33,450 nucleotides of DNA from Candidatus Treponema caballi (lineage in GTDB: Bacteria > Spirochaetota > Spirochaetia > Treponematales > Treponemataceae): assembly GCA_018066285.1 (NCBI GenBank), contig JAGHRS010000012.1, forward strand, positions 1 through 33,450, written 5' to 3'. Shown one piece after another: positions 14,519 through 33,393 of this stretch (the stretch's first letter is position 1; the number at the start of each line of letters is the position of its first letter). Under the pieces are notes generated by a model. It searched no databases, was not told the DNA's origin, and saw nothing but the letters and a program-made list of their open reading frames with translations. The translations under genes were made by a program, and so were the position numbers.

Positions 14519-16228
14519 ATGAAACCAGAACTTATTAACAGTTTGAAAGGCTATAACGCCAAATCTTTTGCAAGCGATTTCATTGCGGGCCTCATTGTCG
14601 GTATCGTTGCTCTTCCGCTCGCCATCGCTTTTGCCATTGCATCCGGAGTAAATCCTGCTGCCGGACTTTTCACAGCAATCATTGCGGGCTTCTGCATCAG
14701 TGCATTCGGAGGAAGCCGCGTTCAGATAGGCGGACCGACTGGCGCGTTCGCTGTCATCGTGTATGGCGTCGTTGCGCAGTACGGCATGGCGGGGCTCGCG
14801 ACTGCTACGGTCATGGCGGGCATTCTGCTGATTCTGCTCGGCGCGTTCAAGATGGGCGGCCTTGTGAAATTCATTCCGTATACAATTGTCACGGGCTTTA
14901 CTGCGGGTATCGCGGTCACAATTGCGGCCGGCCAGCTCGGCGACTTTTTCGGTCTGCGTCCTGATTTTTCAACTCCGATGCTCATCCTTGGCGAGGAGTA
15001 TACCAAGATGCCGGGCGATTTCCTTCCGAAAATGATTGCGTACGTGCGCTCTGCGGCAAGCGTGAACTGGTATTCGTTCACCATGGCCGCGGTCTGCCTT
15101 GCGTTCATTTTCATATGGGCTAAGTTCATCAAGAAGATTCCGGGCAGCTTTGTCGTCATCATTCTGGCGACGGTCGTCAGCATCGTGCTGGAAAAGACGT
15201 GCGGGCTTACGACGGATACGATCGGCAAGTTTGCGGACGGTGCGGAACACTACGTCATCCCGTCGACGCTGCCAAAGCCTGTGTTGCCTGATTTCAGCAT
15301 ATCCACGATTACGACGCTGTTCCCGACAGCGGTTTCGATTGCAGTGCTCGCAGCTATTGAGTCGCTTCTTTCAGCGGTTGTTGCCGACGGTATGATTGGC
15401 GCCAAGCACGATTCCAACATGGAGCTTATTGCGCAGGGCGTTGCAAACATCGCGTCTCCTGTGTTCGGCGGCATCCCTGCTACAGGCGCCATCGCTCGCA
15501 CGGCGACGAACATCAAGAACGGCGGACGCACTCCTGTCGCGGGCATCATCCACGCGCTGACGCTGCTCCTTATCCTGCTGTTTGCCGGAAAGTATGCGGC
15601 GTACATCCCGATGGCAGCGCTCGCCGCCGTGCTCATCAACGTTGCCTGGAACATGGCGGGCTTTCCTGCCATCCGCGCGCTTTTGAAGGGCCAGAAGTCT
15701 GACATCTGTGTTTTCCTCGTAACATTCCTGATTACGGTGTTCATTGATCTGACGGTCGCCATTGAGGTCGGCCTTGGATTTGCCGCGTTCTTCTTCATCA
15801 AGAAGATGATTGATCTGTCTGAAGTGCAGAACGAGCGTGAGGTGCTGACAGGCGGCATCAAGGCTGACCAGCCTGCTGAGAACCTCGACATTCCTGATGG
15901 CTGCTTTGTCTACGAAATTGAAGGCCCGCTTTTCTTCGGCACTGTCAGAAAGTTTGAGCTTGCCACCGAGCGCGCCCAGACTGAGTGCAAGGTGCTCGTT
16001 CTCCGCATGAGGAATACAATCTATCTTGATGCAGGCGGCATCCGCGCACTCGAACAGGCGAAAGCGGCGTGCGACAGAAAGGGCATCACGATCGTCATCA
16101 GCGGCATCCACACGCAGCCGTACCTGCTCCTTGAAAAGACAGGCATGGCAGATGTCCTGGGCCGCGAAAACATTCACGACAACATATCCGGCGCATTGGA
16201 GCGCGCCCGGGCGTTGATAGCAAACTGA
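14519..16228 (+). CDS. SulP family anion transporter with STAS domain
   Basis: A 569-residue inner-membrane transporter. The transmembrane part (about 15-430, a dozen or so helices) opens with the SulP signature region: DFIAGLIVGIVALPLAIAFA, then GVNPAAGLFTAIIAGF and GSRVQIGGPTGAFAVI. The cytoplasmic STAS domain follows from about 450 to 565, with LFFGTVRKF and VLRMRNTIYLDAGGIRAL. Known members carry sulfate, bicarbonate or dicarboxylates. Sequence alone does not settle the substrate; no sulfate-assimilation or carbonic anhydrase gene is adjacent. Length is normal. It appears monocistronic and converges with the decayed flavodoxin gene just downstream, only six bases away, without an obvious terminator. 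Confidence 0.92.
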   Translation: MKPELINSLKGYNAKSFASDFIAGLIVGIVALPLAIAFAIASGVNPAAGLFTAIIAGFCISAFGGSRVQIGGPTGAFAVIVYGVVAQYGMAGLATATVMAGILLILLGAFKMGGLVKFIPYTIVTGFTAGIAVTIAAGQLGDFFGLRPDFSTPMLILGEEYTKMPGDFLPKMIAYVRSAASVNWYSFTMAAVCLAFIFIWAKFIKKIPGSFVVIILATVVSIVLEKTCGLTTDTIGKFADGAEHYVIPSTLPKPVLPDFSISTITTLFPTAVSIAVLAAIESLLSAVVADGMIGAKHDSNMELIAQGVANIASPVFGGIPATGAIARTATNIKNGGRTPVAGIIHALTLLLILLFAGKYAAYIPMAALAAVLINVAWNMAGFPAIRALLKGQKSDICVFLVTFLITVFIDLTVAIEVGLGFAAFFFIKKMIDLSEVQNEREVLTGGIKADQPAENLDIPDGCFVYEIEGPLFFGTVRKFELATERAQTECKVLVLRMRNTIYLDAGGIRALEQAKAACDRKGITIVISGIHTQPYLLLEKTGMADVLGRENIHDNISGALERARALIAN

Positions 16229-18446: not shown

Positions 18447-20219
18447 TTATATTCCCATGCTCAGTTTGTAGTACAGTCCTTTTTTCTCCATGAGCTGCTG
18501 ATGGTTTCCTTCTTCAGCGATTCCCTTGTTCGCGATGAACAGGATGCGGTCCGCATTTCTGATTGTTGAAAGACGGTGAGCGACGACAAACGTTGTCCTG
18601 TCTTTTGTAATGATGTCGAGCGCTTCCTTGATGATGGCTTCTGTTTCCGTGTCGATTGAGCTCGTCGCCTCATCAAGGATGATGACTGACGGGTTTTTCA
18701 GGATGATGCGCGCAAAGCTTATCATCTGCTTTTCTCCGGCGGAAAGACCAGCGCCGCGTTCATCAAGCTGGTGAGCGTACCCGTCCGAAAGCTTGTCGAT
18801 GCAAAGGTCAGCGTGAATCTTCTTTGCAGCGGCGATGCACTCTTCGTCTGTTGCATCGAGCCTGCCGTAGCGGATGTTCTCGAGAACCGTCCCCTTGAAC
18901 ATGAACGGATCCTGCATGAGGACGCCGACTTCCTTTCTCAGGCTCGAAAGCGTGACGTCGCGGACATCGTGGCCGTCAATGCACACGCTTCCTTCCTGCA
19001 CATCGTAAAAGCGCGTCAGCATGTTGATGATAGTCGTTTTTCCGGCTCCTGTGGGGCCTACAAGCGCAATCGTTTCGCCGGGCTTAACGTGCAGGTCGAC
19101 GTGCTCGAGGATGTTCTGGCCTTCTTCGTAAGCAAACGTAATGTCGTTTAAGTCAACGACGCCCTGAACATCCTTCAGTTCCTCAGCGCCTTCCTTGTCA
19201 GCAATCTCGACTGGCGCGTCTATGGTGTCGAATACCTGCTCAAGGTCGCTCGTTATCTGTGCGAGCTGCTGCACTATCATGGCAATCTGTGCGATTGGGC
19301 CGGAGAATATGCCCATGTAACTGGTGAACGCGACGACAGTTCCTGCATCAATGGCGGTGCCACCGTTCAGGATGCTTGCAAGAGCGACACCGAACATGGC
19401 GAGTGAACCGAGACTCCAGAACACTTCGATGGACGGCTGGTTCAGCTGGTTTACGCGGAAGATGCTGTACCACTGACGGGCGCAGATGCCGTGTATATCC
19501 ATGAGGATGTGGCGGTTTGTGTCGCCGCGGTTGCAGTTCTTGATGATTTTCTCGCCCATGATTGATTCAACGCAGAACGCCGTTCTGTTTGAGTTGTAGG
19601 CGCGGAGGCGTGAGAACATCGGCTTTAAGAGCAGGCGCAGTCCGAATACGGCCGCCATCATCGGAATGACCGCGGCGAGGACGACAAGAGTGAGCGTCGG
19701 GCTTAAGGCGAGCATGAAGAAGAGGACGACGAAAATCTTTACGAGATACACGAGCAGCTGGACTACCGTGTTGGTGAAGAAGTTCGCGAGCTCGTTGACG
19801 TACTCGGTGACGCGGACGACGATCTTTCCGTTTGGCTTTGAGTCAAAGTAATCGAACGCGAGCTCCTGCAGGTGATAGAAGACATCCGTGCGTATGTCGG
19901 CGATGATGTTGTGGCCGAGCTTTCCCATGAGCACCTGCTGCACGTAGGTGACGCCTATTTCAATGCCTGCAAGCACAACCATGCCCGCTATGAGCAGGAT
20001 GAGCTCGCGCGTGTCCTTTGAGTAGACTGTGCTGTTGATGATGCGTTTCAGGAGCACCGGTGGAATCATTGAGACGACGGCAGTACCGAGCATAAGGCCG
20101 AAAATCAGGAAGAACAGCTTCTTGAACGGCAGGATGTATTTCATGATGCGGCCGAACTGATGGATGTCGACCTTGTTGTAGATTATTTCGTTTTCGAAGT
20201 AGGTGTTTTTCTGTGCCAT
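18447..20219 (-). CDS. ABC exporter half-transporter, consensus-site subunit
   Basis: A 590-residue exporter with an N-terminal six-helix membrane domain (about 30-325) and a C-terminal ATPase. Motifs are Walker A GPTGAGKTT (388-396), Q436, signature LSAGE (492-496, altered from LSGGQ), Walker B LDE with catalytic Glu517, and His548 in VAHRLSTI. The start MAQKNTYFENEII at 20219 is chosen because it lies one base after the stop of the partner gene; an upstream in-frame extension would run into that gene. Together with the next subunit it should form a heterodimeric lipid, drug or peptide exporter with one good ATP site, built from this Walker A/B and the partner's ISGGQ. The substrate is unknown. 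The sigma-factor gene lies 56 bases downstream. Confidence 0.93.
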   Translation of the reverse strand: MAQKNTYFENEIIYNKVDIHQFGRIMKYILPFKKLFFLIFGLMLGTAVVSMIPPVLLKRIINSTVYSKDTRELILLIAGMVVLAGIEIGVTYVQQVLMGKLGHNIIADIRTDVFYHLQELAFDYFDSKPNGKIVVRVTEYVNELANFFTNTVVQLLVYLVKIFVVLFFMLALSPTLTLVVLAAVIPMMAAVFGLRLLLKPMFSRLRAYNSNRTAFCVESIMGEKIIKNCNRGDTNRHILMDIHGICARQWYSIFRVNQLNQPSIEVFWSLGSLAMFGVALASILNGGTAIDAGTVVAFTSYMGIFSGPIAQIAMIVQQLAQITSDLEQVFDTIDAPVEIADKEGAEELKDVQGVVDLNDITFAYEEGQNILEHVDLHVKPGETIALVGPTGAGKTTIINMLTRFYDVQEGSVCIDGHDVRDVTLSSLRKEVGVLMQDPFMFKGTVLENIRYGRLDATDEECIAAAKKIHADLCIDKLSDGYAHQLDERGAGLSAGEKQMISFARIILKNPSVIILDEATSSIDTETEAIIKEALDIITKDRTTFVVAHRLSTIRNADRILFIANKGIAEEGNHQQLMEKKGLYYKLSMGI

Positions 20220-32529: not shown

Positions 32530-33393
32530 TTATTTCAGTTTATCAAGGTTTCTGACAAGTTCAGATGCGATAAGTTCAGCTTTAGAAGCGTAATCGCGCA
32601 CGCGGCCTGGCTCCCCTGCGTGTTTCCTGATGAGCCCGATGTAGCCTTCGATAGCGCGCAGTGCAGGCCGCACCTGTTCTTTGAAAGCAGCGATTGCGGA
32701 GACTGGAGAACCGTCCCCTGGTAACAGAGAACCGTCCCCTGGTTTACGCAGTGTGACTGGAGAACCGTCCCCCTGTATCAGGCCGAGAACGGCGAGAAAG
32801 TAGCTGTCTTCCGGTAGTGGAATGCCGGCTTCTCCGCAGTCCCGGATGACAGCGAGCGCGTTCCTGTAGAAGACGAGGAACAAGTGGTAGGTATCTCCTT
32901 TGGAGGGAGAGGAAACTAGAGAACCGTCCCCTGGTGCTTTCTTAGAAAGGGCAGGGAGAACCGTCCCCTGGTACAGCTTGTGTGAGAGTGCGGTAAAGCT
33001 TTCGGGAACATCGCGCGCTGTGTAGAGCATGGCGGTGAACGCAAAACGCCGCCTGTCGGTGTGCTGTTCTTTCTTGAGTGCGGTGACTATTGAAAGCAGG
33101 GTAGCGCTCAAATCCGCACTGGCGGAATCGTTTGCGGCGTCTACTGCTTTTCCGGCGGTCGCGCTCAGAAAGAACGATGCGGCGGGAGTTGCCTTGAAAG
33201 CAGCTTCGAGCAGTTTCTCCTTGCTTTCGAACCGCTGGGAAACAAGCCCCTGCGAGATGCCTGCTTCTGCAGCTATATCCGTTAAGGAAGCAGAAGTGAA
33301 TCCTTTCTCTCCGAACTGATGCATTGCAGCCTGTAAAATCTTCTCATCTGTGTCTATTCTGCGTTTGCCACGTTGTGTAAGTTGTGCGCACAT
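32530..33393 (-). CDS. TetR family regulator enlarged by short GC-rich repeats
   Basis: A 287-residue regulator; TetR proteins are usually about 190-220. The N-terminal DNA-binding domain is intact: TDEKILQAAMHQFGEKGF, then SLTDIAAEAGISQGLVSQRF and ESKEKLLEAAF. The ligand-binding part (about 75-287) is interrupted by PGDGS-type stretches encoded by five copies of one DNA repeat: one reads as YQGTVLP and four read as (P/Q)GDGS. Without them the length would be close to normal. Whether the protein still binds ligand or dimerises is uncertain. It is upstream of GH43 on the same strand and may control it. TATAAA five bases before the ATG suggests a leaderless or very short leader; AAGGAT further upstream is too distant for a normal ribosome binding site. 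Confidence 0.82.
   Translation of the reverse strand: MCAQLTQRGKRRIDTDEKILQAAMHQFGEKGFTSASLTDIAAEAGISQGLVSQRFESKEKLLEAAFKATPAASFFLSATAGKAVDAANDSASADLSATLLSIVTALKKEQHTDRRRFAFTAMLYTARDVPESFTALSHKLYQGTVLPALSKKAPGDGSLVSSPSKGDTYHLFLVFYRNALAVIRDCGEAGIPLPEDSYFLAVLGLIQGDGSPVTLRKPGDGSLLPGDGSPVSAIAAFKEQVRPALRAIEGYIGLIRKHAGEPGRVRDYASKAELIASELVRNLDKLK
32707..32972. repeat. Five copies of the short repeat AGAACCGTCCCCTGGT inside the TetR gene
   Basis: Copies lie at 32707-32722, 32728-32743, 32761-32775 (one extra C, last bases changed), 32920-32935 and 32957-32972. Four are identical over 16 bases. Spacing is irregular (21 and about 33 bases in the first cluster, 37 in the second). Four copies are read in one frame and one in another, so the sequence was spread as DNA rather than selected as a peptide. 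Confidence 0.92.

Follow-up and report, generated by a model that had tools for sequence, protein, structure and literature searches.

A repeat within a TetR-family gene

The window, meaning the whole stretch of 33,450 nucleotides analysed here, is contig 42 of the 2.9-Mb genome of Candidatus Treponema caballi, which is assembled in 75 contigs. It contains an open reading frame (ORF) for a TetR-family regulator, whose TetR_N domain (53.6 bits) spans residues 19-65 of 287. A first-pass annotation of the window had reported five copies of AGAACCGTCCCCTGGT in this ORF. All five sites are present, but only four are exact 16-mers and one carries two mismatches (Table 1). With up to three mismatches allowed, seven matches occur in the window, compared with a mean of 0.12 in shuffled windows. 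One 12-mer match falls within an ABC-transporter ORF, at a point where the encoded protein has FKGTVLENIRYG, which we take to be a conserved ABC-exporter motif; this match is probably a coincidence with the protein motif and no element. The remaining near match, with three mismatches, is unremarkable.

Table 1. Positions of the genes and repeats discussed in the text. Unprefixed positions refer to the window.
Feature	Position	Strand	Remarks
TetR-family regulator ORF, host of five copies	32530-33393	-	287 aa
Repeat copy 1	32707-32722	+	exact 16-mer; GDGS on the gene's strand
Repeat copy 2	32728-32743	+	exact 16-mer; GDGS
Repeat copy 3	32761-32776	+	AGAACCGTCCCCCTGT, 2 mismatches; GDGS
Repeat copy 4	32920-32935	+	exact 16-mer; PGDGS
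Repeat copy 5	32957-32972	+	exact 16-mer; other frame, QGTVL
12-mer match in ABC-transporter ORF	18883-18894	+	protein reads FKGTVLENIRYG
Near match	22002		3 mismatches
Y1_Tnp transposase gene	C26:13814-14557		247 aa
Stretch corresponding to the HTH-like tail	L063:14480-14570		GLSINQISRLTGTSRRMVI; other frame, past A8 run
DNA polymerase I (PolA)	L071:159-3086		two GDGS copies, interdomain linker
Homocysteine methyltransferase (MetH)	L072:3283-5832		two GDGS copies, interdomain linker
Short degenerate runs beside core copies	L063:14600-14640, 15328-15360, 16146-16190		e.g. CCTAGTCCCCTAGTCCCCG
Composite of about 125 bp	L063:5893-6027, L063:15202-15336, L065:11105-11239, L070:3720-3830		three hairpins
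Further ATGGA-loop hairpins	L066:9206, L167:8701

As the annotation had stated, the copies in the TetR ORF are read in two frames, four as (P/Q)GDGS and one as QGTVL. Its estimate that the protein is about 70 residues too long is a fair one, the best TetR matches in relatives being mostly open frames of 201-258 codons. A search of 245 genomes of the family yielded no orthologue of the regulator that matches it beyond the helix-turn-helix (HTH), and none that lacks the repeats, so there is no empty site with which the gene could be compared. The five copies may represent five separate insertions, or fewer insertions combined with tandem duplication. A single-sequence model of the protein is too poor to use (pLDDT 47); in it, most of the repeat sequence is placed between predicted helices.

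Distribution of the repeat

The interpretation as an element at the DNA level, dispersed through the genome, is borne out. The 12-mer AGAACCGTCCCC has 63 copies genome-wide (32 on the plus and 31 on the minus strand; none for the reversed control), which lie on a dozen contigs, in genes and in intergenic regions, with unrelated flanks. The TetR gene is not a special target, since the repeat is also present in at least ten further genes recognised by Pfam.

A single copy is present in one of six congeners; the other five have none. Most of the 296 sampled genomes of the phylum have 0 or 1 copy, and three genomes from other families have 11 to 24. Similar repeats in other bacteria, which the annotation had mentioned, were found in other families of the phylum, and also in Firmicutes. 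Two motif-rich stretches gave no match in Rfam, and a literature search with 11-12-mer sequences, covering open-licence papers, in which sequences are poorly indexed, returned no paper on a bacterial repeat.

Structure of the element

In an alignment of the copies, the core GAGAACCGTCCCC is near-invariant, and T(G/A)GT comes after it. The left flanks tend to GTGAACCA and the right flanks to TGGTTCAC, which are complementary. On the G-rich strand, the element is probably GTGAACCA-GGGGACGGTTCTC-TGGTTCAC, a single-strand hairpin with variable arms and with the core GGGGACGGTTCT in and beside the loop. Pairing between the arms of the same copy scores 283, compared with 259 when arms are shuffled among copies (sd 10, P 0.01), and the best stem also exceeds that of shuffled arms, with P 0.008 in the Ca. 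T. caballi genome and P < 0.002 in Firmicutes. The pairing in Ca. T. caballi is weak, with a best contiguous stem of 2-4 bp in most copies, and the best-preserved copies have folding z-scores of about -4 to -5.5. The 63 copies nevertheless fit the general description of REP-like sequences as tens of dispersed palindromic copies.

The same core is found with other arms elsewhere, namely AAAT / GATTTT in genome G066, and GGGACAA / TTGTCCC and GAATCAC / GTGATTC in Bacillaceae. An element recognised as a hairpin would be expected to show this combination of a fixed core and changing palindromic arms.

A single transposase gene in the densest repeat cluster

The annotation had also pointed to a REP-associated tyrosine transposase (RAYT) as a possible partner of the repeat. 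The genome has one, which is its only Y1_Tnp gene and lies within the densest cluster of copies. The protein matches PF01797 (Y1_Tnp) with 60 bits, and the NCBIfam model REP_Tyr_transpos (NF047646) with 77.6 bits, just under the curated cut-off of 80. H60-x-H62 and Y119 are invariant in 12 homologues and are taken as the catalytic residues (HuH motif and tyrosine). A structural model of the protein (mean pLDDT 74, near 90 in the catalytic region) has as its best structural match 4er8, the structure of TnpA-REP in complex with a REP hairpin (E 2e-8).

The closest full-length relatives in named genomes are from Firmicutes (Alkaliphilus, Sporomusa, and Bacillaceae), with 38-49% identity over the aligned part; relatives from the same phylum reach at most 43% over shorter stretches, and the six congeners have no Y1_Tnp gene. 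Horizontal acquisition of the transposase is likely. The Firmicute homologues end in an HTH-like stretch, ...SIRQISRVTGISKSVI. The corresponding stretch in Ca. T. caballi lies in another frame, past a run of eight A, and no HTH match was obtained with Pfam. Because of this frame change, the transposase copy may be damaged, phase-variable, or misassembled. Judged by its length, its tail, and the repeat motif, the transposase most probably belongs to the TIRYT / TnpA-REP subclass 2.1 group.

Within 15 kb of the transposase gene there are 27 of the 63 copies, at 18 separate sites, where 0.65 would be expected. The neighbourhood is unlike an island of mobile elements, since it contains guaA-like and sugar-use genes. 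In two congeners, the genes of C7 lie at a distance of about 5-8 kb from guaA, in a different order, and this synteny, although not conclusive, suggests that C7 is linked to C26, where the transposase gene lies.

Genes for Firmicute homologues adjoin gggacaaGGGGACAGgttccTTGTCCC or gaatcacGGGGACGGttctcgtGATTC repeats, which combine a GGGGAC(A/G)G core with palindromic arms that differ by species; near several other Firmicute and same-phylum homologues, no obvious repeats of this kind were seen. Clustering could be checked in five Firmicute genomes, among fourteen genomes searched. In these, the 15 kb around the transposase gene hold 3 to 10 copies, compared with 0.06 to 0.47 expected (P 3e-5 to 9e-11), counts that may be inflated because the search pattern, GGGGACRGKTNC, was designed from the repeats beside those genes. 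We read the clustering as short-range dissemination.

Alternatively, the repeat could have spread by replication slippage, local duplication, or gene conversion, with the RAYT as a bystander. Direct pairs 21-39 bp apart are common, one pair on C1 with a common flank resembles a 36-bp duplication, and degenerate TAGTCCCC runs adjoin copies, all of which would be compatible with such local processes. They do not readily account for copies scattered on a dozen contigs with unrelated flanks, for RAYT-centred clustering in six genomes of two phyla, or for the lack of the repeat in congeners that also lack the RAYT, and we consider this explanation unlikely.

Copies inside genes

We find 24 of the 63 copies within 11 Pfam-recognised genes, which encode an alpha-L-rhamnosidase, a melibiase, a DNA/RNA endonuclease, a glucosaminidase, a phosphodiesterase, DNA polymerase I (PolA), a homocysteine methyltransferase (MetH), an Rsm22-like methyltransferase, PrmC, a cation-ATPase-like protein, and the TetR regulator. 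The free frame tolerance assumed in the annotation does not hold, as 18 of these copies are read in the GDGS frame, in nine of the 11 genes. The bias was assessed by gene because tandem copies are not independent, and has P 2e-5 in this post-hoc test, corrected for the choice of frame. None of the six frames of the canonical core contains a stop; common TAG variants give stops in the GTVL and RTVP frames and never in GDGS, which is also the most linker-like peptide of the frames. The bias can thus be explained by a reading-frame sieve.

In PolA and MetH, the copies lie in linkers that vary in length among congeners, and the congener orthologues are without the GDGS stretches. The net gain in length is small in both proteins, so the copies may have replaced linker sequence and not simply been added to it. 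Since the PolA and MetH copies sit in variable linkers, we favour tolerance over regulation for the TetR gene as well: by analogy, its repeats are most likely passive passengers, tolerated in loops of the ligand-binding half. The protein presumably still works with them, and a change in its regulation is possible.

The strong preference for one frame in nine of 11 genes and the copies in the PolA and MetH linkers could also be understood if GDGS were a feature of the proteins, either a selected linker or a recombining coding cassette, with the DNA repeat as a by-product. This is improbable, given that many copies lie outside any ORF of at least 90 residues, on both strands and with the core unchanged, that the GTVL and EPSP frames also occur in genes, and that an identical core is found beside homologous transposases of another phylum. 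A conserved protein feature was rejected because of the intergenic copies. Least probable of all is a protein-binding or DNA-uptake-type site selected for genome maintenance, which the strict 12-bp core and its presence in and between genes would allow and which the low number of copies (only 63, 27 of them in one 30-kb stretch), their near absence from congeners, the hairpin arms, and the association with a transposase speak against.

Model for the spread of the element

We think it likely that the 16-mer is the core of a REP-like hairpin element that is spread by the one subclass 2.1-type transposase of the genome, and that copies in the GDGS frame are tolerated in genes. In this model, the Y1/HuH transposase would recognise the single-strand hairpin on the G-rich strand and disseminate the element mostly near its own gene, with new copies landing between and inside genes. 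Copies inside genes would survive mainly where they lie in variable linkers and are read from the G-rich strand as (P/L)GDGS(L/P), a hydrophilic turn free of stops. The TetR gene would be a host of this kind, its five copies forming two clusters. We infer that the Ca. T. caballi transposase mobilises the element.

More tentatively, and with somewhat less than even confidence, we propose that subclass 2.1 transposases, those with an HTH tail, have their own overlooked type of REP. It would combine a constant GGGGAC(A/G)G loop core with species-specific arms, pass horizontally across phyla, spread chiefly within about 15 kb, and give rise to GDGS linkers through the reading-frame sieve.

Comparison with known repeat systems

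Di Nocera et al. 2013 (PMC3733652) described TIRYT transposases, whose terminal inverted repeats share GGGGWSAS, and intragenic REPs, many of them in DNA repair and replication genes. The present system resembles TIRYT in its Y1/HuH RAYT-like transposase, its G-rich repeat motif, and its moderately abundant dispersed copies, often in pairs or clusters. It differs in the core, GGGGACGG, which has G instead of A at position 7 of GGGGWSAS and is placed in the loop of a short, variable-armed hairpin. Furthermore, the copies flanking the Ca. T. caballi gene have the same orientation and are not inverted; inverted GGGGACGG copies flank related transposase genes in genomes G066 and G042.

According to Quentin et al. 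2018 (PMC6006769), who also noted in-frame REP insertions, most TIRYT belong to subclass 2.1, the second largest TnpA-Y1 subclass, which has no REP assigned; neither automatic nor manual searches found REP-like sequences near its genes. The long C-terminal extension, the HTH-like end of the Firmicute homologues, and the lack of an evident GTAG guide would agree with this subclass, in contrast to the palindromic family with a shared core, of which that survey found none.

With GTAG/CGTC REPs and REPINs, the element shares its short palindromic form, its tens of copies, its pairs, and some intragenic in-frame copies, with DNA polymerase I and further repair genes among the hosts (PMC3733652). 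It was rejected as a GTAG REP, as the flanks of 63-67 copies have no GT[AG]G consensus at the foot of the hairpin, and as a CGTC REP, as CGTC is located inside the core, in the loop region between the arms, and not as a tag at the end of a palindrome with the stem beside it. The arms are also far more variable than the core. We know of no dedicated transposase for the rickettsial palindromic elements (RPE). These elements, compared here by description only, are likewise palindromes in frame within genes (PMC3733652).

The element would thus work like a REP, most probably of the TIRYT group, without GTAG/CGTC tags or inverted flanks in Ca. T. caballi. TIRYT repeats are known in outline; what is new here is a REP-like family around the gene for a probable subclass 2.1 transposase. 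The mechanism by which REPs spread is not settled, and a defined core, a genome with one transposase, and sharp clustering make this a simple system for tests. PolA, MetH, and TetR, with their in-frame copies, illustrate how a selfish repeat can add short protein linkers.

Other repeats near core copies

In other genomes of the phylum (L142, L141, and L148), other Y1 lineages lie within their own GGGGAC(A/G)G arrays, in which the next bases differ (TGGTGTTTT, AGGCGCC, AGAGCA). This hints at a G-rich core of general occurrence, with the remainder cognate to each transposase. In Ca. T. caballi, some core copies have short degenerate runs beside them, which look like repeated copies of the right arm. 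A composite of about 125 bp with three hairpins (CAGGGCCATGGATGGCCCTG, GAGTATT...AATACTC, and GCCAGCATGGACGCTGGC) occurs at four places, in three of which it is bounded by two GGGGACGG copies. It is possibly a second, composite mobile element, and more ATGGA-loop hairpins are found at two further sites.
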